Below are positions 3,640-43,215 of a DNA stretch of 64,000 nucleotides, piece by piece (position 1 is the stretch's first letter; every line of letters begins with the position of its first letter). The stretch is from Giardia muris (Eukaryota > Fornicata > Diplomonadida > Hexamitidae). The translations under genes and the position numbers were made by a program. The notes beneath the pieces were generated by a model. It did not search any database. It had not been told where the DNA came from and saw only the letters and a list, made by a program, of their open reading frames with translations. Location: the NCBI GenBank assembly GCA_006247105.1, contig CM016929.1:558001-622000 (forward strand), in the 5' to 3' direction.

Positions 3640-4581
3640 TCATTTAACACGAAAACGGCCTGCAACGACTGCATGGTTACGGTGGAACTCGCCAATGTCG
3701 AGCTGCTCCTTGCACTTAAAGCCGCACTCGCGCAGAACCTCGATTTCACGGGCAAAGACGGCCTCGGGATGCATTGTCGAGTCGACGGAGCTGGCTTTAA
3801 TGCTGATGATCATCCCCCCTCCGGCCTTGAGGTAGAACCGAGCGTTTTCTCCGACGATACGCGCTTGGTCTGGTTGAGCAACGTCAGAGAAAATACAATC
3901 CACCTCGGGGACAGTCATGCGGTAGCGGTATGGATGACGGGCGTCCGAGATAATGGGGTAGATGTTCGGCCTAACCTTGGCCACCTCAAGGAGGTCACGC
4001 CCCGAACGGTTGGAGAACTCGACGGCGTAGACGGCTCCAGCGGGCCCGACGATATCCGAGACGTGGGAGACAGTCGTCCCGGACGCAGCACCCAAGTAAA
4101 GAACCTTCGCACCAGGCCTGATAGGCATGTCCAGGAGGTTGAGGCGCACTGCCGCGCCAAGCTTGGATCTGAAAGGGTTCCACTCGCGGTACTCGATCTT
4201 GTCCCCCTCGACCTCCACTGCCACGCGCTTCTCGCCATAGACGGATATGCCCGGGGCAAGAGATTTGGTAACAAGAGTATCTCCGCGGCCATGGGAGATG
4301 AATATCCCTGGGTACTTCGAGTGTGGTTTGATCATCGTGCGCGCTCCACCCTTAAATCCTCCGTCCCGTGGGCCTCCTCGCGGCCCGCCTTTCTGCCCGT
4401 TTTGACCGCCTCGAAAACTAGGACCGGGACCACCAGGACCTCCGGGGCCTCCGCGCTGACCGTCTCTCTTGAACCCATTCCGGCCCGGCGGAGCCCCCCG
4501 TGGCGGCCCCCGCCGCTCTCCACCATCGCGAGGCCCACGGCCAGCATGACTATCACGATTACGGTCTCTGTCGAAGCCCAT
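3640..4581 (-). CDS. Fibrillarin, box C/D snoRNP 2'-O-methyltransferase
   Basis: This 313-residue fibrillarin methylates ribose 2'-OH groups in rRNA, guided by box C/D snoRNAs. The N-terminal ~85 residues form a Gly/Arg-rich domain (RGG, GGPGG). Next come the fibrillarin hallmark KPHSKYPGIFIS, then YREWNPFRSKL, the SAM-binding motif VLYLGAASGTTVSHVSDIVGP, AVEFS, the acidic IFSDVAQPDQ and IKASSVDST. All expected catalytic regions are present and the length is normal. I placed the start at the ATG at 4581; the frame can be read one codon further only through a GTG. The region just upstream is AT-rich (CGAAAAAAG), as expected for a Giardia promoter, and is shared with the divergent dynein fragment. 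Confidence 0.97.
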   Translation of the reverse strand: MGFDRDRNRDSHAGRGPRDGGERRGPPRGAPPGRNGFKRDGQRGGPGGPGGPGPSFRGGQNGQKGGPRGGPRDGGFKGGARTMIKPHSKYPGIFISHGRGDTLVTKSLAPGISVYGEKRVAVEVEGDKIEYREWNPFRSKLGAAVRLNLLDMPIRPGAKVLYLGAASGTTVSHVSDIVGPAGAVYAVEFSNRSGRDLLEVAKVRPNIYPIISDARHPYRYRMTVPEVDCIFSDVAQPDQARIVGENARFYLKAGGGMIISIKASSVDSTMHPEAVFAREIEVLRECGFKCKEQLDIGEFHRNHAVVAGRFRVK

Positions 4582-4615
4582 CACTTTTCTCGAAAAAAGT
4601 ACGTCGGAAAAAACC
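4582..4615. promoter_or_regulatory. AT-rich divergent promoter, fibrillarin and dynein fragment
   Basis: Two A-rich patches (CGAAAAAAG and CGGAAAAAACC) lie directly upstream of the fibrillarin ATG on one side and of the dynein intron half on the other. Giardia promoters are short AT-rich initiator-like elements near the start codon. The assignment of each patch is inference. Confidence 0.5.
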
Positions 4616-4670
4616 TCAAGTACTGGAGGGAAGAAAAGCTCGCACCAGCAGAATCTTGACTAACACGCAG
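4616..4670 (+). other. 3' half of a split (trans-spliced) intron
   Basis: The sequence ends in GACTAACACGCAG at 4658-4670. This matches the Giardia 3' splice signal, in which the branch-point sequence (CTRAC) is fused to the acceptor (ACACRCAG). The TAA at 4661-4663 closes the dynein frame upstream, and dynein homology begins immediately after the AG. No dynein coding sequence exists 5' of this point; the next gene is fibrillarin on the opposite strand. The matching 5' intron half must therefore be elsewhere in the genome. The purine-rich stretch before the splice signal (about 4621-4645) is the likely pairing region. The 5' boundary is a guess. Confidence 0.8.
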
Positions 4671-7050
4671 CAACCGACGAGAAGGACGAGGTCGTTCGCC
4701 AGGCGAATGCGACGAAGGCGCGTCTGGACCTCGCAAACCGACTGGTCAACGGGCTTTCCTCCGAGAAGACTCGCTGGAAGCAATCCGTGGCCAACCTACA
4801 GGAGCGCGACAAGACCCTGGTCGGGGACGTCCTGATCACGGCCGCATTCATCTCCTACTCCGGGCCGTTCAACCGGCAATTCCGGACAGATCTCTTGACG
4901 AAGTGGATCGCACGGGTGAAGGAGCTCAAAATTCCGATGCAGGACGAGTTTGACCCTCTGCAGCTTCTCACAAACGACGCGCTAATTGCGCGGTGGAATA
5001 ACGACCGGCTTCCAACAGATCGAGTGTCGCTTGAGAATGCATCGATCTTCACGACGGCCGAGCGGTGGCCGCTCATCATTGACCCGCAGCTACAGGGGGT
5101 GGCCTGGATAAAGGCGCGGGAGGAGCGCCGCAAGGCGGAGGAGGAGGCGTATAAGCAGGCGTTAGCCGCTTACGAGGAAGCGAAGGAGGCGTTGCGCCGC
5201 GAGCAAGGAGATGGAGCAGACGAGGGGGCTCTGACGAAACCGAAGCCCAGCGAGGAGAAACTTGGGGCCCTGCACGTGATCCGCTTCTCGCAGGCCAAGT
5301 GGCTTGATACCATTGAGCGTGCCGTCCAGAACGGAGACATGGTGCTCATCGAGAACATTAGCGAGACCATCGACGCCGTCCTGAACCCTCTGCTCGGGCG
5401 AAACATCATTAAACGGGGAAAGACGAAATATATCCGCTTCGGTGATAAGGAGGTCGAGTACGACGACAACTTTCGGCTGTACATCCAGACGAAGATGCCG
5501 AACCCCCACTACTCTCCCGAGATCCAGGCGCAAACGACGCTCATCAACTTCACGGTCACCATCGACGGCCTTGAAGACCAGCTCCTCGCGCTGGTCGTCT
5601 CGGAGGAGCGCCCAGACCTCGAGGAGCTGAAGGCCTCGCTCATGCGCCAGCAGAACGAGTTTAAGATCACCCTCCAGCAGCTCGAGGAGGACCTTCTACG
5701 GCGACTCTCCTCAGCCCAGGGTGACATCTTAGGAGATACCGAGCTCATCGAGAACCTCGAGAAGACCAAGGCCACAGCCTCCGAGATCTCTGAGAAGGTG
5801 AAGGAGGCGAAAGTCACGGAGGCCGAGATCAACCAGGCCCGTGAGCAGTACCGCCCGGTCGCCGCACGTGCCGCGATGCTCTACTTCCTCCTGAACTCGC
5901 TCAACGTCATCGATCACTTCTACCAGTTCTCCCTCTCCGCCTTCATCACCGTCTTTTACCGCGCAATTCGGAACTCGGCGAAGAGCGACGACGTTGCAGA
6001 GCGCGTCGCTATCCTCCTCGACGCTCTGACCTTCGACGTGTATAGCTATGCTGCTCGCGGGCTCTTCGAGCGGCACAAGCTCATCTTCATCTCCCAGCTT
6101 TGCTTCAATATCCTTCGGAAGGACAACCTGCTCCCGCCCGCGGAGTTTACGTTCCTCCTCCGCGGAACGATGTCTGTGACCCGCGAAAACGTCCTAACCG
6201 AGTTTATCCCGACCCCATCCTGGAATAGCGTCGTGGGACTGGCGGAGTCCATCCCGGACGTCTTTGGAAAGCTCCCAGACGACATAGAGGGCTCGGCGAA
6301 GCGCTGGAAGGAATGGATCCAGCACGAGCAGCCGGAGCGTGAGAAGCTTCCGCAGGACTGGAAGAACAAGACGAGCCTTCAGAGACTTTGCATCGTCCGT
6401 GCGCTCCGTTCGGATCGCCTCATGACAGCGATGACGGACTTTGTCGCGGAGTCGATTGGGGACAAATATATCGAGGCCATTCCCTTCTCGTTCAAGAGCG
6501 TCTATGCAGACTCAAGCAAGACGGAGCCGATCTTCTTCATCCTCTCGCCTGGTGTCGATCCCGTCAAGGACGTCGAGGCACTTGGGCGACAGCTGGGCTT
6601 TACGGCGGATAATGGGAAATTCAAGGCGATTTCGCTTGGACAGGGCCAGGAGAAGTTTGCTGAGCGGGCCATGGAGGACATGGCGGAGAAAGGTGGGTGG
6701 GTGTTGTTACAGAACATCCACCTGATGAAGGTCTGGCAGGTCAAGCTTGAGAAGCTGATGGAGCAGTACTGTTCGGAGACGGCTCATGAGAACTTTCGTC
6801 TCTATTTATCTGGAGAACCAGATGCAGACCCTGCGATCGCGTCGGTTCTTCCGGGGATCGTTCAGATGTGCATCAAGGTGACGAACGAGCCGCCTCGTGG
6901 GATCAAGGCGAACATGAACCGCGCGATCAACCTGTTCACCCCCGATGTCTTCGAGATGTGCTCGAAGGGGAACGAGTTCAAGAGCATTCTCTTTGCGTTA
7001 ATCTTCTTCCACGCGATCGTCATTGAGCGTCGGAAGTTCGGACCGATAGG
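4671..7050 (+). CDS. Axonemal dynein heavy chain, internal exon (stalk CC2 to AAA6/early C-terminal domain)
   Basis: This is an internal fragment of a dynein heavy chain, the ATP-driven motor of flagellar arms. It opens in the second stalk helix (ATDEKDEV...ARLDLANRL...EKTRW) and runs through AAA5 (RLPTDRVSLENA, RWPLIIDPQLQ), then the conserved GLEDQLL and LEEDLLRRLSSAQGDIL segments. It continues through AAA6 (GGWVLLQNIHLM, LYLSGEPD) into ALIFFHAIVIERRKFGPIG. There it stops, roughly 300 residues short of a normal C-terminus. A charged insert of about 45 residues lies at nt 5117-5255. The 5' boundary is a 3' splice site (codon phase 1) and the 3' boundary is GG|GTATGT (phase 2). The first internal ATG (4787) lies inside the stalk and is unlikely to be the biological start. 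It most resembles outer-arm chains. Read through, the frame ends at 7096 after 15 non-dynein residues. Confidence 0.93.
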
Positions 7051-7096
7051 GTATGTGGTGTTCCGCTTGCTGTGTGTTGTGTGTTCCTTCACTTAA
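7051..7096 (+). other. 5' half of a second split intron with ncRNA-type 3' processing motif
   Basis: GTATGT at 7051 is a Giardia-type 5' splice site placed exactly where dynein homology ends. The 46-nt half is GT-rich (TGTGTGTTGTGTG) and ends with TCCTTCACTTAA at 7085-7096. This differs at one of 12 positions from the TCCTTYACTCAA-type motif that I recall as marking 3' ends of Giardia non-coding RNAs and of 5' intron halves. No 3' splice site or dynein C-terminal sequence follows, because the next gene is SMC4 on the opposite strand. The last exon must be encoded elsewhere. Confidence 0.82.
7087..7093 (-). terminator. AGTGAAG poly(A)-like signal overlapping the SMC4 stop codon
   Basis: On the minus strand AAG-TGA-AGG contains AGTGAAG, a near match to AGTRAAY that includes the TGA stop of SMC4 (7091-7089). 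The same bases on the plus strand are the core of the dynein intron-half processing motif. Confidence 0.6.
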
Positions 7097-24002: not shown

Positions 24003-24004
24003 AA
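23998..24004 (+). terminator. AGTAAAA signal spanning eRF3 stop and the next start codon
   Basis: CAG-TAA-A-ATG places an AGTAAAA-type poly(A) signal over the eRF3 stop and the first base of the next gene's ATG. Confidence 0.45.
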
Positions 24005-27000
24005 TGAATACCGACACATCTAATCCTAGCCCCTCCCTCGCGTCGTCACCTACCCTGCTTCTCGATCGGCTTCGGAGAGGCATGGCCTTGGTGATGGACC
24101 AGGATCGTGGACAGACGAGTGATAGCCTCATATCCTTCCTTGAGACTTGTCTGGCCTGTGTTTCAGCCGGCCAGGATACCTATGGCGCTCTCTGCGAGGG
24201 CCTTGACGTGGCTTCCACTGCTCTGCACGGGTATATATGCTGCCTTGGTCTGGATGATGGGGCTAGTCTTCGGGCATTGAATCTCTTTGGAACCATCTTC
24301 GTAACCCTTTGCTCGTGCTTCACACACGCCTTCGAGGCACACGACGAGACCTATCTCGCAGCCGCACGCCCCCATGTCATCCCCCTTTTCAGATCCTTCG
24401 TCGTGATCTGCTTTGTCCTCCCACATACCATCGATCATCATGCTGATGCCATTGGAGGAATCTTCCGAGTCCTTCTCCACCCCGATGTCAAAGCTCTTGG
24501 CCCTTCTGGAATAGACTTTTATCTCACTTTCACCGAGGTCTCTCGCTTTCTGATTTGTCCCGACTTTACTACCATCGGGGCATTGAGTATCTCTCGTGGG
24601 GTGCTATTAAAACGAACAAAGGCGATGGTCGGGCGGCAGCTCGCCCTCGTCATTGGAGGCCTCCAATTCAACTTGGACCTCGTCACAGAAGGACAGCGAG
24701 CAGCCGTCATGCTCCTTCATTCTCTGTCGGCCCAGGTCCCCGCTTTGACCAGTACTGCCTGCACTCAGTCGACCTTCTACTTGCTCCTCACCGCCGCCTG
24801 GGCAAACAACCTCGTTGTCGCACTCTGCAGCAAGCTCCGCACCTCTGACCTCGCATGCGTCTCCCTCTTAGCAACGCTCTGCAACGCGCATCGGACTTTC
24901 CCGGTCGTTACCCTTCCGGCCATAGCCAGGCTTTTTGAGGCCTGTGTTACCAGTAATTTGCACTCCAGACTATTGGAGGACTTGGCAGACCCCATACTGG
25001 AATATGTTACGGCCACTAGCGATCTTGTCAATCAGCTCCGGCGACAATGCGTCGGCAATAGTGGGGTCCGAGATTGTATTAATTACATCCTGCAGTATAT
25101 CGCGCCCATGGCAGTCAGTCTTGCACGCCTTCTCCAGATGGGTGGGGCCATTCCATCGATATCGCTTTTGCGTTTGGACATATCCCTCATACAGTTGGTC
25201 TCCCTTCTTGCTGGAGGTAGCCATGGTGAGCTTAAAGAGCTACCTGGAGTGCCTTTCCAGGACTACACTCGCCTAGTCTTCTCGGGCCTCATACACTATC
25301 TTTGCTCCTGCCTGATGTACCCTGCCACCACTCGCCGGGTCATCGAACTTCGAGGCCTTGGCGAGGCCTTTCGCGCAGCCCTTTTTGCGGCAAGGCACTT
25401 GACTTTCTCCTCTTACACGTACTATTCTAACCTTCTCTCACACTTCTTCCTGGTGCTTTTTGAGCATATCACTCCACTGCCATCGCGCGCTCTTGAGATC
25501 AACGACACGCCGTATACGCTCTCTAGCGTCGCTCTTGAGGTCGAATTGAATAAGAGTCTTTGCGGCGCGTTTCTCGCGGATCTATTTGCTAGTCCCGGGT
25601 CCTTCTTTCGGGAGATAGTTGTTTTCTGCGCACAATGCCAGTCGCGCCAGCCGCCTCTTATTCGGGACGAGTACTTTTTGTCTGTCATAACCATCGTTGG
25701 GCAAGCGTTTACACGGGCCTTCTTCGAGGATCTCTTTACAACTCTTAGTACACGGTGTTGCAGAACCAACCTAGCCGTCTACTTCTTCGACCTCTTACTT
25801 GTGAGTGAGAGAGCCCGTCAACCTCCTGAATATGGGCCTCAGCCAACGAGTTCAGAGGTGGCAACTGGGATTATTTGCCGCAAGCTGCGACTGGATGAAG
25901 GTGGCGGGCAGTTTTATATTGCCACTCTCTATGCAGAATACATGGGCCCTCTCGTCCGATGTCTTGGCCTCCCCTCCCTCATCAGCTTTGCCACCACTGT
26001 ACTGTACAACCTGCTACTCGCAGGAGAGGTGGTATATGTCTGCCAAGACCTTCCACGGCAGCTTTGGGTCTTGCGGATCCCCAAGAAGTTTGTACGGCCA
26101 CAGACCATCGAGGGAGTTCATTTGTTGGCTCCTCAAGTGATCCACGTCCTTAGCGAGCTTTTCAAGTACGAGCTGAACGATTTTCTTATGTCGATGAACC
26201 CCCTGCAGTATCGGCGCCAGCCGGCGGTTCCGCTCTACTTGGGGCCGCGAGAGGCGATGGACATAATGTCCCTTCTGATCTTGACGTCGTATGCCATGCT
26301 AAGCACTTCCACGATTCATCCCGCCCTCCTTCGGACGTTCTCCATGCGCCTCATCGACTTCATTCGGTATTATATCATGGCATATGCCTCCCTTGGGGCG
26401 GCTATTGCCGTTTTCGAGGGTCATTACCTTCAAGTGCTTGCCGACCTCCCCACCCTGGTCTTATCGTCCCTCCCCCCGATCAATGCTGTATTACAGAGCT
26501 CATCCTTCATGAAGGAGAGCGAGCCCTTTCAATTCTCGCCTCTTGTGTTGGACGAGGGCTTTGTGGGGAACCTGCGACAAGCGATCACAAAGGACTTGCT
26601 GTGTGTGTGGGGTATCAACGGCTTCGAGCCCTGCCTTCCTTCAGCTACGCGGGATGCTCTAGGAGGTTTCGAGAAGAACCTCTCTTTCGATGGCATGGGG
26701 GACTTCAACGTCCTCGAGTACGTTATTTATGGCTACTCCAGCTTCCCCTTCTGTGGTCCCGACGCCCGGAACGTCGCCGTCATCTCCTTCATCAAACTAG
26801 CACCCTATGGGCTGTTGAGCACGAACTTAATTCTTCGCTCGTATGTCCTGCGCATCCTTGCTAGCGAGCCGCCCGTGGCGGAGCCCTTCATCGTGCGGAG
26901 GCATCGGAATGGGCTCAGCTCCATCTACTCGAGCGACTTCACGATCATCAACTATCGGATCAATACGTACATTTCTGTGATTCAGAACGCTGAGTTCACC

Positions 27001-30000
27001 TTCCGGGTCGCCGTGCGGAATGCGTTAAGCGATCATATGCTGATTCAGGCCGTCATGGAGGACGCAGTGACATATATCTTGGCTATCGTGGAGCGGCTCC
27101 TGCAGCAAGGAGTCCAGCATGCAGAGGATATGGACCTCGCCTCGAACCTCATCGTCACCGTCGCTAATCAAGACCGTAGGCATTCCGGTAGACATCGGAC
27201 TCGCCCTCTACGTGGGAACCAGGGGATGCTCCTATACCCATTGACGTTGGATCAGAACTCCATCCCGCGACCGGAGGATGCCTTCTATATGGGGAGCTCC
27301 AGTTTTAGCACGAACAGTGTCGATTTTCTTCAGCACCAACTCCACTTCTACTCGCACACCTCGTTGACGTTCGGGTTATTCTATGAGCCCCCTACTACGG
27401 CCATGGAGCTTTTCAACCTTCTCCGTAGGAATTGGATGCCGGCCCAGTACGTAGATGCCTATTCTTGTGATAAGCACCTCCTCTCTCCCATGGCCTTCAG
27501 CGAGTTGGCACTCACGATCAAGGGGCTATTAGGGGTCTATGGTGCTGATCTCCTGGCCCGATTCACAGCGAACCTGGCCACAGTCTATCACGAGCCGCCG
27601 GTGCATCCGGCTCGGGTTGAGGTCTTCTCGCTCTATGACCCGCTAAATAGTGGAGTCGACCCCGAACGGCTCGTCCACATCGTTGATCAGGCACGGCTCG
27701 ATCAACTCCCCCATGTTCGACTTGAGGTTGACCTTCGAAGAGCTGTCCATTACTACGCCCTCTTTTTCGCACGGCAACCATGGCTTGGACAGGCGATACG
27801 GCAGAACGACGAGCGGCTCGAGCTGATTGGACACGTCGTAAAGCTTCTCTACTACGTTTGGGAGCAGCATGGGATCACATTTTACCCGCGTCCGCCAGTG
27901 CTCAGTGATACGGTCTTTGCGGCACAATATGTGGACTTGCTTCGGGCCTTGCATTCATGGGATACGCTGGCTGTCTCGGGACGTCCTCCGGACCAGTTGC
28001 AAGCACTTGGAGCATTACTCTATGTCACCCAGCATTGTTTACTTCATGATGAGAAGGCATTTCATGCTCGACAGAGGCAATCTGTCGACCTGCAGCTGCT
28101 CCACGTGATTCCATATATTCTCCTATCGGCAGTGGGTGCTGGAAAGCATAGCATACTTCAAGCCTATCTTGACATGCTGCTGGGCCAGTGTGAGTACCTA
28201 CCGCATCCGATTAGCTGGAATGTGCGTCTGCGGATGCTTCATAGCCTTGTTTATGCCTTTTCCGTCCAAGCCCCTGGGAGCGTACCTGGGAGCACCATCT
28301 ACCAGAATATTGAGAGCTGCGATGTGGCACTTGAAGCCTCCACTAAGAATGTTGTGGAGGAGGAGATGCTGGAAGGGGGAAAGCATCCTCGCGGGGCGCT
28401 GCTTCTATTAGCCCTTTACATCTTACGTTACCTTGCGCACCATCTGACACGTGATGGAAATACCTCCTTCGGGATCATGATGGCCTGTCAGGTTTTGCGT
28501 CTCCTTTTGGATATGGCCAGTACTAAGCCTCAACATGTCCACAACAGCCTCCAACTAGCCCTCGCCGTTGCCTTCGCCACCCTTTCCCAGAGCCTTATCG
28601 CAGCCTTCGACTCCTTTTCCAGGACTATAAATACATCACCAACCAGTTTCGCCATCGTGACGCAGGTGATCTCCCAGCTCGGCCGTTATGTCGACTGCAT
28701 CGTCCCGGCCTTTGTATTCTATCTTCGCGGACCTCCCACGACTGAATGTTCACCCTTCGCGAGCGCCCTCTATGCTTGCTTCGGGAAGGAGATTAACAAG
28801 GTCTTCTGGCTCGTCGGGAAACTCTCTACAACAGGCCATCCGGTTGGGCTAGCTGTCTATCGTGCTTCAGTTGATCTTCTTCACAAGTTGTCTGGGTCTC
28901 TTAAGGCTGAGAACGCGCTCGACGTTCGTGCCGCCCTTCGCGGCCCCGAGAAGTTCTTGACCTTGGCCCTGTATGCCGACGCTCTCTTCTTGCTATCCCA
29001 AGCCGGGTTGTTAACTGGGCTTCGGGAGCAGTCCTTTTCTGAATGCCATGACCGGCTCACAGATATCCTTCGGACATTGAGCTCTTTGCAGACCCATTGT
29101 ACTCTTCGACGTTTCACGTTTGCTCAGGAAGGGATCTTCACAGACCCTAATGGTGGTGGACATGGGGCTCGTCCTCTTAGCCTACTATTGCAGCTTGTTC
29201 GTGGAGATCATTATGATTTGCTCATATATGGGCCACGGAAGCTTGAACCCACGGAATGTGTTTCTCTTCTTCAACTCTGTCTTGGCGTCCATCATGAGGC
29301 AGTCCTTTTGGTCATTCACCTCATTCGAGGAGTTGATACTCTTCTTGGACAGAATGAGGAGGCTTTATCGCCGGAGCTGACTGCATTCCTTGACGAGTAC
29401 CAAAAGGAGGTCTTCAAGGCCCTAATCCAGGGCTTTCTTGCATTTGCCGATGAGTCACGCTACGTCCGGTACTTCTTACGTTATGGGTATGACCTGCATG
29501 CAGTCCAGGCGACTATTACGACGGTCCTGGGCAAGTATCTGGTGGAGAACCCGATAGCCACCCGTTTTCTCGAGAGCTTCGACATAAGGGAGAAACAGGT
29601 GGCGTACGTGCCCGTTATTGGGATCACCCTGACTAGCCTCGAGCTATACCTGCTCTATAAGGCTCTTCGGACGATTTCCTTGCTGTTCGCGAATATTCTG
29701 ACGGACGATGTAATACAAAAGCAGGCAGACCTCGTTCCGAAGATCGTGTCTCCTCTCTTCGCCTATTATCGCTCTCGCACATATCCGACTCCACTCTTTT
29801 ACCAAGCTGCAGAAGTCATCTTACGTGTTTTCCCTTCCTGCGCCTCCCCAGAGTTTGTTGAGTCCATCCTCACTCCAGAGCATTTACAAGTTCTCGATAC
29901 CATGTACTTGCCCGAGCATTTGGAAGAGTACATTGGAAACACCTTCTTCCCACAAGCCTACATCCTCCAGGGAAGCAAGCGGCTGAACGTGGTGGACTTT

Positions 30001-33000
30001 GTGCGGACATCTCCTGGCGTGTGTCGAAGTTTCTTTGCGGCATCTGCCCGAGTTTTAAACAAGGCCTTCAACCGCTTGCTCTATCAGTGTATGCGCCACA
30101 GGATCTTGCCGATGAATGGGGACATTTTCAGAACATGTGAGAATGTATACCGTCAAGTAACGCACTTCTCCCTCTCAACCCCGGTCTTCATCTCAACTCT
30201 AACTCTTCAAACGATACATCCATTCGCCGGGAGAAAGGAGACGCCACAGGGCCTCTTGGCCGTCCTTCTTGGTGCTCTCTTCACAGATACACTTCCAGAC
30301 TTATCTCAGGAGTTAAGCGTACTCCTTTCCGAGACACTCTGCAGCGTCCTTGGGGGCGAGGTCAACCCGCCCGTCTGGAGCGCCCTTGCCCCTGTGGCCG
30401 CTATGAAGGCCGAACTTTGTTTCGAAAATCCGGCCTTGATCACCTCTTCTCAAACATATCGTCTTCTTTGTACTCTCGTTTACATGGTGGCGGCTGTGAC
30501 CAAGGAACGAGCGGAACCATTGTTTAGACGGTTCCTCGAGCTCTCGGAACAAGTCTGGGGATCATACCGTGCAGATATCTCCACAGATGTTTTAAGCAAT
30601 ATTACTCAACTCATCACATTGTATAGTACGGACGATCAGGTCCAGTGCCTGGAGCTTTCCCAATACCTCTCAGTGGCATCGGTTGAGCTTCTGGCCCAAT
30701 CACTCATTCGTCATCATAATGGCGAGGTCCATTCCGATCTTCTCATCAACCTGGTATTACCAGTCGTCGAGAACCTTGTGAGTAGGCATTCCTTCCAGTT
30801 GGTCGCCGTCTTCAATAATCGGCTTCTTCTTCGGAACCTGCGGGGCGTCGAGGCCATCCTGGCGTTTCAGGAGTCGCTATCTGGGTATGACTACAACCTT
30901 CTCGGAAGACATGTCGATGACTTTGTGCGACTTCTCGGCTTGCGGGTCTCGGAGGCTTGCGACTACCAACTCCTCCTTGCTGGCTTATTGATGCTCCTCG
31001 AGGAAAGCTATATAGACCTGGAAACCCCCTTTGTAATGTTGCTTCTTGGCCACCCGGACCCAGAAGCTGAGCGCTTCTATGAAAAAGCTGGAGAACTCAG
31101 TCTGTTATTCCCGTCAGACTCGTCACAATTGATAGCACAGATACGAGATATCACGGGGCACATCGGGTCGCTTACGGACCAGATAGCTAGCTTCCTAGGA
31201 TGGTCCTTCTCCGAGGAGGGAATGCTTCTCTTCTGGGATGTATCCCACAGAGCTTTGAACATCCTAGCAGAAATAGGCGTCAGTCTTCGCTTCAAAGGTC
31301 TTAGTAGCTACTTAGCTACCTTGAACACTCTGATTACCGTTTTCATCCTTATCGTTGGAAGCCTCCCTTACCACAGACGTGCAGACCTGAGCTTCGTGCA
31401 GCATGTCGTCCTCTTCCTTGAGGACCTGCTCGCGGTCTTGCGATCTTATAGCCCAGTGGGTGCATATCTGGATACGGACTTCCTGTTTTTTGCGCATGGA
31501 GTCGGAGAGGTAACTACGTCGGTTCTTTTCTTCGTCATTGGATGCTCATCGCTCAAGGATTGGCATCTCGCCCCGAAAGACAGGGAGAAGACTCGGATGC
31601 ATCGCTTTCTTACTTCGCTTCGTGGAACCTTGTTGGTGGAGGGCTATGTGCGCCAGCTCGTGACCCTCTGTCTCTCTCTTTTAGGAACCCTAGCCATCCG
31701 GGTTTTCACCCCTCGAGCTCTTTGCCTCGAGCAAGACACCGACAGACTTTGCACAACCGTTGACAGCACAATGGCCATCCTCTTGATCGCACTCTTGGAC
31801 CTAATTCGTACTGTGCCGCCTCCACCTTCCGGGTTGCAAACCCTGGGGGTGGTTCCCCTTCGCTGTCTCGATCGTGGTCATAAGAGCACTGATAGGATAA
31901 TGCGGCTGGTATACGAGCTAGCGAATGCCAACGAACCAGCCCACTCCAATGCCACAACAAAACTACCAGTCAGCCACGAGAGGCTTGCATATCTCGTCGA
32001 GAGATATTACAACCTACTCGTCGGGGGCCTAGCGGGAGAGAAATACTCGTCTGAACGCTTCTCTGCATTATTCTCCAGGCATCCGGAATGGACCCTTCAC
32101 TTCGGTGATAGCTCTCGTGGCCCTCCCCATCAGCCAACGGGACTCACGCTGACGGGCCCCCATGTTCTCCATACGCTCTTGAGCATGGGACTCCAGACTC
32201 CCTTCTTCACCACCTATAGCCGGACGATTTTAAAGATCATCGATGCCCTCAACCTCGACGCACTTGATCACTACCAACAGCACATATCCGCTCTCGAACG
32301 TTTGTCTCTGGCCCATCGCATTGCTTCTAGGTGTATCTCAGCAAGAGATGTGAGCCGACTAGAGATACACACAGCCCTTCAGGCGGCACTTCAGCAAATT
32401 ACCTCCGATGCATGGACAGTACTAGTCCAACTGCTGTGCGGGCTGCATACCCTGCATGTCAGAGTCATTCTCTTTGCCACCGAGATCCTTCGAGCTACAA
32501 CGTCTTCTGCACGACATACACGCGTCTGGGACGAGTTCTTCACTGGGATCTGCATGTTCTACGATCTTCAGCCTCGAAAGAGTGCGGGAGACGACGGTGA
32601 CCTTGGGAGATACCTTCAGGAGCTGCAAGGTGGGCTTGAGCGAGCTATTTTCGCCTCCTATTGCTACACTTTGGCTCTACATGCGACCATTAAGGCCCTC
32701 TACGCGGGATCCGACGGGGGCTGCTCTCCGTACGTCGTACCCTTGCTTCAGTTCGGAGTCTGCATTCTATTGGTGGTTTTCGACATCCCACTCGGGACAG
32801 TGCTGGGCTCTCTTAACAGCGCGGTCACTTACAATGCCTATTACATGGCTCTTCGGCGCACCCTTCGACTGATCATTGATCTACTCGACTTGAGCTGCGA
32901 GCTCTTTAAGCGAGACATTATGCACGCGAATATACCACCTCCTCGTCTCGCATGGAATCTTCGCCCGGCCTATGAGCACGTCAAGCAGTTCCTGGATGAA

Positions 33001-36000
33001 CAGAAGGTGGTTCTGGCACAAGCAGGAGAGATTGATGCATTCATTGGTCTCCCCTTGGTACGACTCACTGGGTGTCTTCAAATATCTTTACCAGAACTAC
33101 CAGACATGCAAGAGAGACAGATCCATGTGGGACACCTCAATGACTCGGGTTTGAAGGCAGTACTCGTGCCTATTAGCGAGTTCTCCGTTCCAACAGTGGA
33201 CCTGCGTTATCTTTCGCTCGATATTCATATGACGGCCCTCAAGAGTGTACTTGAGTTCCTGCAGCCCTATTCGGGGGCTCTCACGCATTCCTCAGACATC
33301 CTTGCATCGCTTATCGTCTATATCAACACTCTAAATGGGTACATTCTCACGACTCGCTTCCAGATAGCTACGTATCCGGCCTTTGAGATGAAGTTCGGGG
33401 TACTTGTGCGAACGGTGGTGACCTTATTGAAGAGGCACTTCCGAGCCTCCGGGGGGATACTAGAGATGCTTGGACCGAGGTCTCTTGACGTTCTAGACTC
33501 TTATATCATCGACATGTCGGCCATTTTCCACGAGCTGCTCTCTCTTTGGAGAGGGGAGACTCATCTTCCAGGAGATGTCCTAGAGATGATGACAGATATC
33601 CTGTCCTGTCTATCGGACATCTGTTACCTGCAAGGAGATGCCCTGGCGGAAAGCTATGCCAGGAGCAGCCTGTTAAGATTGAGGTATGATGATAAGTATA
33701 AAATATACCTGCCCCCGACCGTTCTTGGCATGGTTCAGCGCGTCAACCCAACCCCGGGCGTGGTGTCCGTGACTGCCGGCTCTAGCGTCATCGCTCCGTA
33801 TGTAGGGATTGGGGACCTCCCGGCTTATGGACAGCTCCTTCGGAACAAGGGGATTGGGGTGACGACTGGCTGCACCCTCCTCCCAACGTTCTTCTTCCAC
33901 AGGTCCTTCCTCATGCACCACAAGGTTGGGGAGATCCACGGCTCAACGGGAGAGGAGCTTCTCGATAAGCTATTGGTCTCGATACTCCGCTTCACACAGC
34001 ACGCAGACCGCTTCAGCAGACGGAACTCCCTCGCAACCTTCTTGACCATTTTCCTCTACTTGTCTGCGCGTCCCCTTGACACATATAACGATGCGGTCTG
34101 TAAGATAGCAATGCTCAAGGCCGCCTTCGCCGTCTCCTCGGATTTCGTTTATGAGACGGTCGAACACCTATTACTCAGCTATACGGGCCATGATGCTGCC
34201 GCCCGCGAGCTCTGGGGAAGTTCCACAGCCTCCGAGACCATAGGCATATCACAGCTGAATAGAAGTTATTCCCATCCTCCAGAAGTCATTCGGAGGTATA
34301 TGCGGGGTGCTGACATCTCACACCTATTCAAATACTATGTCATCTGTGTCAAGTCCATTCGGATGTCTTCCGATACCGTCCTTCAACGGAATTCGCTCTA
34401 TGCGTTCTTTTTGCGCCTCATCGCCGAGTCCAGCAGTATCCCACTTGACACCCAGATGCTCTTGGTTGTCACCGATAGCTTATCTCGGTACGTTTCTCAG
34501 CAACCGCACACACAGTTCGGCGGGCTTCTGCGTTTCATCTTGGAAAGTAGTAGTGATGTCTCATTTACGCCAACGCATGCGTCCCCCTACCTTCCAGGCA
34601 TTGGCGCTGGACTCCCACCTCTCTCCCCAATGAATGGGACGCGCCATGATCCTAGTATTCTTTGGACCATCTATGAGATTTTGACAAACCAATGGCGTAC
34701 AGGCCCCGTGCCTAACATTGAGGAGCCTCGGGCCAGCGACGTGCAAGGGAAGACGATGTATGATCTTATCGGCGCCAGCATACAAGAACTCCGCCAGCTT
34801 TACGCCTTTATCGAGAAGAATGGGGCATTTACCCAGTCCTTGGGTCCTCCAGAGGGTTGGATGGAGATCGAGAACGAACGACTTCCCTTTGACCCTCGGC
34901 GTGTACACGAAGCAATTAACATTCACTTCCCTAAGGTTCGTGAGGAGAACTATCCCATCCTTCGCGAAGACATCCTAAACCCTGGCATGCTCGTAGATCA
35001 AATTCGAGGAATCTTCGCCTCCTTATTGGCCATTACAACGCTCCTAACAGCGCGACTGTTCCATGCACCCATATTTGACGAAGTCTTTGATCTCCTATAT
35101 CAAAGTCTGCGTCCACTCGTCGCAGAAGATGCCGTCTTGGCCCAGAAGATTCAAAAGAGCTACTCTGACTGGACGCAAACGATGACAAAGCTTAGCAACG
35201 CGGAAATCCAGGACCTTACGGCTCAATACGAGCAAGCTCTCGGGGTTTACGAGAAACAGAACCAGGACTACAAAGAGAAGCTGCCGAACGCCACCATCGA
35301 AGAGTCCGAGGCTCTTCGGAAGGCATATGAGGACCTCTGGACTGCACGGAATGCGCTCTTCCTGTATCATAACGCCAATGGAACGCGTGACCTCTTCCTT
35401 CGTTCTATCCCACAGCTTGCAAACAAGTGCCGCACCATTCGTGCCCTATATTTGCATTGGACGAAGTTCGTGACTCCCGAGGGGACTAGGATTCATACCC
35501 TTTGGACCCAAGGAGATGAAGCTCGAGGGATCCCACCTCTAGAGAGGATCAACGATTGTGCGCAGCGTCTGGCACACATTGGAATCAACGCGTTCAAACA
35601 GCTTTGTATTGAGATAGACACCCCTCAAGCGGGAAGTGGACCGGCGGGACGAAACATCCATGCAGACTGCAGTTTCAGGATACGGTCACGGGCATTGGGA
35701 GCCGCTCTGGCCTGGGAGACCTGGATCAAGCGTGTAGCCTTCGTGACGATTGATCTCCTACGTATCCCCGAGCTGCAGCTCGGTTGGACGGCTCCAATAC
35801 ACCCTCATGACGAGCAGGGGTCCAATTATATGGTCCTCCGAGGTAGCCGCTGGCGACTTGCTCGCATTAACGTCTTCTCCGGTGGGCGCCGTGGTGCCTC
35901 TTCAAATTATATCATTCGGCCGACGTTTACCGTTGGGATGAGCGGAACAGCGCTTGGGATGGTCTACAAGCGGATCTTCGAGCGAATTTCGTCCCGGGAA

Positions 36001-39000
36001 CTCTATGCAACGATCTTTCTTCAGCACTGTAACCAGCCAAACGAGGCGGCAGCCGTTGCGCTTGCCAACTCATTGAGCATCTCAAACGATGTCCCAAACC
36101 CAAATGCAAGCTTGGGGCAGCTGGATCTCCAGGAGGAACTCTTCCTTTTCAACCGCGATGTTTTGCGCGTCGCCTTCCCAGGCTTCTCGGATACCTTCCT
36201 CACCCGCTGCTTCGTGTACTGGGGCACCCTCTATGACCATGTCACACCTGACTACAACGCGAGTGCCAAGGATATCCACGCAAACTCTTCGGGTCGAGAT
36301 ATTTTCAATTGCTTGCACACCGAGCAGCGGCTCGAGCACTTCATGACCAACCGTGTAGTCCTGGGGATGTTCTTAACGATGCATAACGTCCACACCCTGA
36401 GCAATATCATCCGACGGCGGCCCTTGGAAGCTCTCTTCCGCCAAGGGTTCATGCGCACCTATCAGGATGCTATTCTGAAGTTCAGGGAGAAGCTACACCT
36501 GCTGTTTGCGTCCGTGAAGAAGCCTCCAACTCTATTGCATGGTGATGCTGACGCGGCTGGTTCCGGAGGACTTCTTCAATATTATAGTTCCATCCTTAGT
36601 CTTTCCGGCTCCGAAGCAAGCCCATCTACTGACGTCCCTCTCGTGGGGATGCCGATTCCCAATCCAATGGCGGCCACCCTTTGTCATAACCTATATCCTG
36701 GGAGTGCCGACGAGCTCTTTGGGCTCCAACTCCCCGATACCGTTCTGGTTGAGAGCGTGCGTATCCTCTGTAACGAAACGCTCGAGGCGCACGTCCGTGC
36801 CAAGGAACGTGATTCGTCCCAGCAGCCGGATCCCTTCTGGGAGAACGACGTACATGCCACCCACATCTACCACCAAAGTATCGAAAGCTATGTCCTCTTT
36901 GGCCTCTTTTTCGCCGAGGAGACACTTGAGACGCTTCTGAAGCTCGCCATCCTCAAGCGGACCATCGTGCACCAGCACTCCTCTGAGGTGGGTGGCTCTG
37001 GTTCCGGGCTCAATACATGCATCGATATCACTCCCTACTCAATCCTTGTCCTAGTTCATGCTTCATCCTACCTCCCGACAGGTTTTATGCCAGGCTCTCA
37101 TAACACTCTCCTTGCCACATCCGACTCAGAAGCATATGGTCGTGCCTTTGGAACCTACGTGGGCTTTTGCTCGAACTCATTGAAGGCTCAGTCAGCGCTC
37201 TTACGACACGCTCTAGCAGCGCTCCCAACGAGCTGGCCCGATCCTCGGCCCATCTCAGTCACCGAATCCCTAGAATCCGTATTCTCATGTGATGGGATGC
37301 TGACCTGCATGTCAAGCACGACCCTTATCTACTACCTGCAATTCGCCTTGGCAAGCCCTCTTGACAATGCAGTCCTTATCAGGCGACTCATCTTTGCTAC
37401 ACGTGACGCCTTCTTGGCGGAACGCGTCCTTCAAGGAGGAAACGACCCTCTCATCCTCAATCAGTTTGCAGATCTCTGCGCAATCTACTCCTGCTTCCAG
37501 ACGTGTCTCATTCACATCAGGAACTTCTTGATGCACTTTCGGGACAACTACGCGTGCGGTAGCAAGTTTCAGAAGTGTTATCGGGTCAACATCCTTGATC
37601 CTTTAAGAATCCTGTTTACCACGTTCAGAACCCGCGTTATAGACCTAGTGCGTTGCGATGGACGAGCCCTGGCGACGTGGGCGGCCTGCCGCCTTTTGGC
37701 CATAAATGTTTTCGCTAGGGCTTTCTCCCCACCCTACCGCTACGTCGATCAGCGTATCCCGATGACGGAGGCACTCGAACGCCTGGCCCAAACCTTATGG
37801 ATCGACCTGAAACGCTTTCTTAGTGTAGCGCGTCGACAGACGGTATTGGCACTTTCGGAACAGGCTTTGATCTGCGGTATGCCTGCCGCTGCACGGCTCC
37901 TACAGAAGCGCGAGGAGGACATACAACCAGCTAGTGAGACGGTCTTCCTTAGCCCTCTTGACGCTGATTCCTTCCGTATCTTCCGGTTGCAAGCCGCGTC
38001 TCTTATATCGTCCGGGCTTCTCGTTGATTATACACGTGATTCAGGCAGTAATTCGACCCGCGAGTTGGGCCTCTTCGCGCATGAGCTCGTCCAGCGTATA
38101 ATGGGCTGCCGCTTCGGAGAGGTGATCAGTAGGTTCCCTCTCCTTAGCCTCGAGATCAGCGTCTTAGATGCGACAATCTTACTACATTGTGAGGCGCTCT
38201 CTCTTCCAGGCCCTCGTCCCACCCCAAATCTTGTAACACACCTGGAGACTCATCACAACGTGAATATTTCCTTGACCCCTAGCGAGAAGACCTCATACTA
38301 CCGTTTCGCCTACGATCTCCCACGGTTCTGGAGCGTGGCGGCCGTCATGGCCACCGAACGGATGAATGTGGTACTCCTTCAACCGCAACAGGAGGCGCAA
38401 TCCCTCTACACACACTTCTTCGAGTTCATCCGTAGTGCGTGCAATACGCTTATCGATACGCTTCACAGTGCCGTCCTCGATGGCCTTGAGGCCGAATACG
38501 AGGCGATCTACACTTTCCTCAACTTCAATGCATTTCTACGACAAGCACAACGAGGAGGGGAGCAACCAGCCACTGTCCCTGCTCCTTCTGCACGGCCACC
38601 TCGACAGGAAGCTCCTCGGGAGAATGGGCCACGTGTTCTGTCGAAGATGCGTAACAGCCTTGTCGAGGCACACTTCCTTGAGGCCAGAGACAAGGCTGCG
38701 CAGGTTGTACTGACGCAACTTCTTAACTATCTCATCTGTCCACCGAGCCAGCTCTGCGCACCCGCATGTACGAGTGGAATTCTTGTCGGGGATATGGCAC
38801 AATATACACCTTCATTCCAAACTGGTACCGTTATTGATATAGCATGTGCACAGCTTCTAGCTAGAGGGATTGGGTACGTCTCACCGCATCATATCCTACA
38901 CAATTTCTATTATATCGCCATATCGTTGTGTCGACCCAGTCAACACTTCAGCGGATACCTCTGCGCCGTTCTGACGGTCCTTCTTCTGACGGTGTACTCG

Positions 39001-42369: not shown

Positions 42370-43215
42370 ATGGGGAAAACACCAACAGGCCGGACGGCTC
42401 GGCGCCTCCGGGGGACCGCGGGGGTCCACCCGATCACGCACTTCTTCGTGAATGTCAGGTGTCTGGACAAGTCTCCTCTCCGGGACGCGCGCACACAGGC
42501 GCTGGTAGAGGTCGCGGCAGCCTGTGCAGACCGCAAGGACCCCTTCCTAGCCTCGCTCCAGAGCCCTCAGGCCGTCACAGACTGGGCCCGGGCGATCCTC
42601 CGCTTCCGAACGACCCGGCTTGGGTCACCAGATGATCTTGAGCCTCTTTTGCCACCGCAATCGGAACTTCGTCCGACGCTCGTCCTTGACCTTGATGGGA
42701 CCCTCCTTTACTCATCTCCCACCCCGGTGGAGACGGCCCTCCCTGTGATCCCGATCCCAGATGACACTTCACTCCCGTATGTTTACTTTCGGCCACATGT
42801 CCACGCGTTTCTGGCCTGGGCACGGGAACATTTCGAGGTTGTTGCTTGGACGGCGGCAACCGAGGCCTATGCCCGCGAACGATTAAGTGCTGGCGGAATT
42901 AGCGACTATTTCGACCACCTTCTTTTCCGGGACTCCTGTACGGTCGTTGGGGACTTGTATGTCAAAAGCCTCCGACGCCTCGGGCGCCGGCTCGATGAGT
43001 GCTTGATCGTCGATGATAACCCCGCCTCCTACCTCCTCAACGTAGAGAACGCCTATCCGATCCCAACGTTCGTCGGAGAGGACAACGATCAGGAGCTTCT
43101 GCGGTTGGTCCCGACCCTCCGGAAGATAATAGAGATGCAGACCGTACGGCATGGTGTCTTTCGACTCGTCCTCGAAGATTCAGCAATGCATCGGGCTCTT
43201 CAAGCGCTAGCCTAG
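42370..43215 (+). CDS. FCP/SCP-type (NIF domain) phosphatase
   Basis: This 281-residue protein belongs to the HAD superfamily of FCP1/SCP/Dullard phosphatases, which dephosphorylate Ser in the RNA polymerase II tail or other proteins. The catalytic motif LVLDLDGTLLYSS has the nucleophile D107 and general acid D109. It is followed by YFRPHVHAFL, EVVAWTAATEAYA and, late, LIVDDNPASYLLN, the family's acidic motif. Most SCPs have DLDET; the DLDGT variant here is closer to the general HAD form. The N-terminal ~100 residues are basic and unassigned. The Tim50-like branch of the family is possible, but I see no membrane helix. The ATG at 42370 lies directly behind the shared AT-rich promoter; extending further upstream would run into the Sec13-like gene. 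Confidence 0.85.
   Translation: MGKTPTGRTARRLRGTAGVHPITHFFVNVRCLDKSPLRDARTQALVEVAAACADRKDPFLASLQSPQAVTDWARAILRFRTTRLGSPDDLEPLLPPQSELRPTLVLDLDGTLLYSSPTPVETALPVIPIPDDTSLPYVYFRPHVHAFLAWAREHFEVVAWTAATEAYARERLSAGGISDYFDHLLFRDSCTVVGDLYVKSLRRLGRRLDECLIVDDNPASYLLNVENAYPIPTFVGEDNDQELLRLVPTLRKIIEMQTVRHGVFRLVLEDSAMHRALQALA

Follow-up and report, generated by a model that had tools for sequence, protein, structure and literature searches.

A dynein heavy chain beta exon of Giardia muris between two half-introns, and distant partner exons for its probable trans-splicing

A single coding exon of a dynein heavy chain beta, here termed exon C-2, occupies positions 4671-7050 on the + strand of a 64,000-nucleotide stretch of Giardia muris DNA (the window; C5:558001-622000 of an assembly of 9,737,486 bases in 52 contigs, to which all genome-wide counts below refer). 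The G+C content of the window ranges from 0.52 to 0.60 in 2-kb steps. The exon is 2380 nt long, and its frame (4673-7048) runs through 792 codons without a stop, leaving two exon bases on either side. Pfam matches comprise positions 264-340 of the MT stalk profile, AAA_9 (E 5e-83), and Dynein_heavy D6 (E 3e-36), and the end of the exon corresponds to the first 24 positions of AAA_lid_11, a match whose 25.5 bits lie below the cut-off of 31. An earlier note on this DNA had described an isolated dynein exon with exact splice borders, reaching from the second stalk helix to early in the C-terminal domain. The borders stand, with a 3' splice site (4660-4670) immediately before the exon and GTATGT (from 7051) immediately after it, and so does the start at stalk helix 2, whereas the far end does not, the frame stopping slightly earlier in the AAA6 lid.

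Both sides of the exon are taken by genes on the opposite strand, as the same note had stated. They are a divergent fibrillarin gene (3640-4581) and a convergent SMC gene (7089 to about 11372), whose stop codon sits, on the other strand, within the processing motif at 7085-7096 (Table 1). It had also held that the 64 kb carry no further dynein, and whole-genome searches with exon C-2, PF12774, and PF18199 indeed returned no second dynein match inside the window. A very long single frame of 5826 aa (24004-41484) likewise has no dynein match in these searches.

Table 1. Features in and around exon C-2 (positions in the window)
Feature	Position	Strand	Basis or remark
Divergent fibrillarin gene	3640..4581	-	PF01269, E 1.9e-96; ATG 4581-4579
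3' half of split intron 1 (acceptor side)	4582..4670	+	at most 89 nt, from fibrillarin start codon to exon
GCTCGCAC, pairing stretch of intron 1	4638..4645	+	perfect 8-bp complement of GTGCGAGC in the 5' half-intron after C-1 (C1:1956464)
Fused branch point / 3' splice site CTAACACGCAG	4660..4670	+	pattern match
Exon C-2, dynein heavy chain beta: stalk helix 2, AAA5, AAA6, start of AAA6 lid	4671..7050	+	frame, Pfam, alignment
5' splice site GTATGT of split intron 2	7051..7056	+	
GTGTTCCGCTTGC, pairing stretch of intron 2	7058..7070	+	perfect 13-bp complement of the acceptor half-intron before C-3 (C1:382868, -)
GU tract TGTGTTGTGTGT	7073..7084	+	common to the four identified donors
12-nt RNA 3'-end processing motif TCCTTCACTTAA	7085..7096	+	fits the consensus in passages of PMC3510501
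Convergent SMC gene	7089 to about 11372	-	TGA stop 7091-7089 in AGTGAA context

The earlier note had proposed looking for an upstream dynein piece ending at a 5' splice site and for a downstream one preceded by CTRACACRCAG, and each was located on contig C1. The upstream piece, exon C-1 (C1:1952422-1956463, + strand; 4042 nt, or 1347 codons plus one base), is present in two copies and is followed by GTATGT and the processing motif. It carries the end of AAA1 (AAA_6), AAA_7, AAA_8, and positions 1-260 of the MT stalk profile, which is divided between this exon and exon C-2. The downstream piece, exon C-3 (C1:382867-381613, - strand), is preceded by CTAACACGCAG and carries Dynein_C. Consecutive exons of one conserved gene are found at distant loci, C1 (+), the window on C5 (+), and C1 (-), with C-1 and C-3 on opposite strands of the same contig about 1.57 Mb apart. 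The N-terminal part of the chain is a separate polypeptide of 2386 codons (C1:642985-635825, - strand) with its own stop inside AAA1; the PF12774 profile is covered at 1-229 by this piece and at 233-327 by C-1.

When joined, C-1, C-2, and C-3 encode 2558 residues, and the junction phases 1 and 2 match. Alignment with P0003, P0006, and P0009, which are three of 713 protein matches and were picked for spanning both junctions, is free of gaps within about 30 residues of either junction, at 49.8-50.7% identity. Junction 2 falls within the conserved stretch RRKFGPI/GWN. Judged by its sequence, the product is an axonemal outer-arm beta-type dynein heavy chain that would form a full motor once joined. 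Axonemal dynein heavy chains 9, 11, and 17 are among the named matches in the 120 listed of the 713 (the search excludes proteins longer than 1.75 times the query), and among the matches listed the protein appears closest to such axonemal DNAH9/11/17-type chains. Within the genome, exon C-2 gave 26 matched stretches at E up to 1, itself included. A contiguous full-length copy of this paralogue, which the earlier note had set against a split gene, was not found in the assembly, since the next best match by score has only 38% identity.

Taken singly, the short signals are unremarkable. CTRACACRCAG with at most one mismatch occurs seven times in the window, a count reached by 11 of 100 shuffles, and GTATGTG occurs five times (28 of 100 shuffles reach five). 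Genome-wide, exact CTRACACRCAG has nine places versus five for the reversed pattern, and the processing motif alone (CTCCTTTACTCAA, at most one mismatch) is unenriched, with 12 places versus 18. It is the combination of signals that carries weight: GTATGT followed by TCCTTYACTYAA within 10-40 nt has five places genome-wide and none in the control, these being window 7051-7096 and two donors, each in duplicate. Both donors of the dynein gene display the extended 5' splice site GTATGT (window 7051-7056 and C1:1956464), both acceptors the fused branch point and 3' splice site CTRACACRCAG (window 4660-4670 and C1:382868-382878), and both 5' half-introns the 12-nt processing motif (window 7085-7096 and C1:1956501-1956512).

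The halves of intron 2 (window donor, C-3 acceptor) are complementary over 13 bp, a length that 0 of 2000 shuffled donors reach, with a duplex z of -5.0. A perfect 13-bp pairing is also displayed by the Hsp90-type halves in the assembly. For intron 1 (C-1 donor, window acceptor), the complement spans 8 bp, which 96 of 2000 shuffled donors reach (z -1.2), and by itself it is weak. The only support for complementarity in intron 1 is the matching of four donors with four acceptors (DHC-beta 1, DHC-beta 2, DHC-gamma, and Hsp90): of the 24 possible assignments, the cognate one gives the lowest summed duplex energy. A fifth acceptor-like site, C2:1926592, stood in the first energy table and was omitted from this four-by-four assignment. 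With the GU tract included, the C-1 donor slightly prefers the C-3 acceptor (-26.2, z -1.5) over its own (-24.0, z -1.2), which counts against helix strength as the sole source of specificity. Every donor prefers its own acceptor once the GU tract is trimmed off, with half-intron limits chosen by hand and the trimmed version made after the off-target preference of the C-1 donor had been seen.

Two proteins from other sources bear on the borders of exon C-2, which in both are read from protein sequence only. P0001 (776 aa) has 99% identity over 95% of the query, with few residues different, and continues beyond the exon as GYVVFRLPYVVCCVLYVVCSFT to its end (frame ...FGPIGYVV...VVCSFT). This tail fits a frame that continues unspliced through GTATGT, a longer GU tract, and the processing motif. 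P0002, from a more distant source, has 71% identity over 87% of the query and GYV after FGAI.

We consider it highly probable (about 95%) that the exon in the window, C-2, belongs to the outer-arm dynein heavy chain beta gene of Giardia muris and that the pieces of this gene are joined by trans-splicing. The earlier note had arrived at a gene split into at least three pieces joined by spliceosomal trans-splicing, a proposal that the partner exons, the matching phases, and the seamless alignment now support. The heavy chain would derive from four genomic pieces and consist of a separate N-terminal polypeptide and a C-terminal polypeptide, the latter from three separately transcribed RNAs, C-1 (either copy), C-2, and C-3. 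Each donor RNA would be cut at the 12-nt motif, directly after the half-intron; complementary stretches would match the donor half-intron to the correct acceptor half-intron, and the spliceosome would join the exons in trans. Positions, phases, protein continuity, splice signals, motif, and complementarity (weaker in intron 1 than in intron 2) are direct observations, and cleavage at the motif, spliceosomal catalysis, and assembly of the two polypeptides are inferred by analogy with G. lamblia.

The DNA-level search was limited to a single assembly, a point in favor of one cis-spliced gene whose exons are scattered only through misassembly. Against it, the exon is closely flanked by the fibrillarin gene on one side and the SMC gene on the other, the partners are on a different contig and on opposite strands, P0001 from another source shares the read-through tail, and the donor motif is known from the 5' halves of G. 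lamblia trans-introns (passages of PMC3510501); we regard misassembly as very improbable. Equally improbable is a dead, unexpressed exon fragment left by rearrangement, given that 792 codons are open, that the sequence recurs with 99% identity in one other source and, over 87% of the query, with 71% identity in a more distant source, that splice sites and processing motif are intact, and that no other copy of the same part of the paralogue was found in the assembly, even though the exon neither opens with a start codon nor contains a stop ahead of the splice site. Splitting at the protein level seems tolerated, because the N-terminal part of the dynein is already encoded as a separate polypeptide, and exon C-2 might by the same token be translated alone, without splicing, as a third one. 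Yet the frame has no ATG, GTG, or TTG to start from ahead of 4787, which is already within the exon, junction 2 lies within RRKFGPI/GWN, and the phases match, so that this last possibility is the most improbable of all.

Two of the four identified donors, DHC-beta C-1 and Hsp90, are duplicated, with borders at the processing motif. Exon C-1 and its 5' half-intron occur at C1:1950001-1956512 and C1:2022699-2029210, offset by 72,698 bp. The comparison covers 6512 bp and shows 3 mismatches; beyond the last base of the motif the copies are no longer identical. The left border of the duplication falls in C1:1947121-1947800, assuming no indels; among the four slices near it, three match at 120 of 120 bases and the leftmost at 28 of 120. 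Provided that it is continuous from one sampled slice to the next, the duplicated unit would measure at least about 8.7 kb, and on that proviso the duplication is not a simple retrocopy. A tandem duplication of 72.7 kb was rejected as the source of the copies: the DNA that follows the first copy has no match to the start of a unit, and all five slices from C1:1946001 leftwards are unmatched at the fixed offset (63-83 of 300 bases). The Hsp90 donor occurs on C1 (L063:2672-3748) and on the reverse strand of C4 (L064, motif end 1046978). The two copies span 1077 bp, starting with AAAAATG (start codon) and reaching to the processing motif; they have unrelated flanks and differ at a single base (T/C), the third from the end of the motif. 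No target-site duplications beyond 3 bases were found around the copies. Among the nine exact 3' splice-site places genome-wide, none is a second copy of any of the four acceptors.

A GU tract, TGTGTTGTGTGT, within 0-2 nt of TCCTTY has six places genome-wide and none in the control. All six are donor half-introns, of DHC-beta 1 (two), DHC-beta 2, DHC-gamma, and Hsp90 (two), the same donors from which the pattern was derived; the p68 donor is not among them. At four of the six donor loci, a count made without a chance control, the stop codon of a convergent gene lies inside the 12-nt motif. At the fifth (DHC-gamma), the convergent stop codon is in the pairing stretch, and at the sixth the scan gave no convergent frame of at least 150 codons. 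Read on the other strand, the motif core TTYACT becomes AGTRAA, and frames entering the antisense motif often end there because it has stops in two of three frames. According to passages of PMC9014877, AGUAAA is the poly(A) signal of G. lamblia and NAG-URA a dual-use stop codon and signal. For DHC-gamma, the donor reads ATATGT at C2:908507 and the acceptor CTAACACGCAG then AC at C3:432595, and the dynein reading frame together with the title of Roy et al. suggests an intron of AT-AC type.

We put forward tentatively, as a somewhat doubtful idea, that the donor half-genes of trans-splicing are movable units defined by RNA ends. The Hsp90 donor copy resembles a retrocopy and is possibly one, derived from a cut, processed donor RNA. 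At the DNA level, gene ends could alternatively offer landing sites for microhomology-driven donor duplication, since TTYACT is the reverse complement of the poly(A)-signal-type AGTRAA.

The p68 donor, which belongs to the fifth published trans-intron, was not found in the assembly by pattern or complement searches, the pattern search returning only the two Hsp90 donors. The acceptor-like site at C2:1926592 (-) includes a stretch able to pair with part of the processing motif and precedes a 150-codon frame; no matching donor was found for it, and a search for the exact complement of a stretch in this site gave its own antisense and three one-mismatch places genome-wide. One of these three, in the window (42698-42711), was rejected as a p68 donor because it lies inside an ordinary reading frame, phosphatase-like by eye (LDLDGTLL). 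Exact CTAACACGCAG is also present at C3:1042059, just upstream of a frame that is LSm-like by eye, in a gene with a possible short GC-AG cis-intron (ATG then GCATGT). A probable cis-intron of 28 nt, GTATGTTCATATCGTCTCTAACACGCAG, lies at C1:1590480 (-) in a gene that is WD-repeat-like by eye.

The core trans-splicing arrangement is already published in outline. Xu et al. 2020 (PMC7641422) report for G. muris homologues of all four trans-spliced genes with conserved splicing motifs, so the headline is known, along with five trans-introns and the motif TCCTTTACTCAA, in a genome of 9.8 Mb, 59 scaffolds, five chromosomes, and 54.7% G+C. The main text of that paper has no mention of 'dynein', 'Hsp90', or 'heat shock', and donor duplication is absent from the passages covered here. 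Given this prior coverage of the trans-spliced genes in G. muris, the earlier note was right to claim novelty cautiously, for the position, sequence, and conservation of the pieces. It had also pointed to a trans-spliced G. lamblia dynein with two fragmented introns, which corresponds to the DHC-beta gene with two trans-introns of Roy et al. 2012 (as cited in PMC5224939 and PMC10711314). In the passages covered, PMC5224939 gives RNA support for the G. lamblia DHCB1, DHCB2, DHCG, HSP90, and P68 trans-introns, with 3,772 and 17,724 supporting reads for the two DHC-beta introns; PMC3510501 covers the 12-nt motif, which the four then-known G. lamblia trans-introns use; PMC10711314 names four trans-spliced Giardia genes; and PMC8494341 names Dhc-beta C-2 and C-3 in G. 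lamblia. A limited literature search and the passages covered gave no published description of the donor duplication, the GU tract, or the stop codon in the motif.

By published description, the G. muris gene resembles G. lamblia DHC-beta in its two split introns, extended 5' splice sites, fused branch and 3' splice sites, 12-nt motif, and complementary intron halves, the last more clearly in intron 2 than in intron 1. The resemblance reportedly extends to the separate N-terminal polypeptide, as Roy and co-workers are said to have found in 2012 that the G. lamblia dynein is likewise translated as two polypeptides, the N-terminal one being separate. Unlike in the descriptions of the G. lamblia gene, exon C-1 occurs twice in G. 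muris, and the GU tract before the motif was not found described in the passages on the G. lamblia gene. The motif stands 34 nt after the 5' splice site in the window; for the four G. lamblia cases known earlier the distance is 34-93 nt (passages of PMC5224939). The Hsp90-type halves of G. muris share the donor and acceptor anatomy of G. lamblia Hsp90 (HspN/HspC), except that the HspN-type donor is present in two copies on different contigs of the G. muris assembly.

The probable expression route of the split dynein, with two trans-introns and the N-terminal half apart, now has G. muris coordinates. Together with the G. lamblia reports, its presence in G. muris suggests that the route is older than the divergence of the two species. 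The shared GU tract beside pair-specific helices provides a lead on how split introns find each other, and the donor borders at RNA-processing signals provide one on how donor genes multiply. Both leads, of moderate interest, bear on the origin and persistence of trans-splicing.
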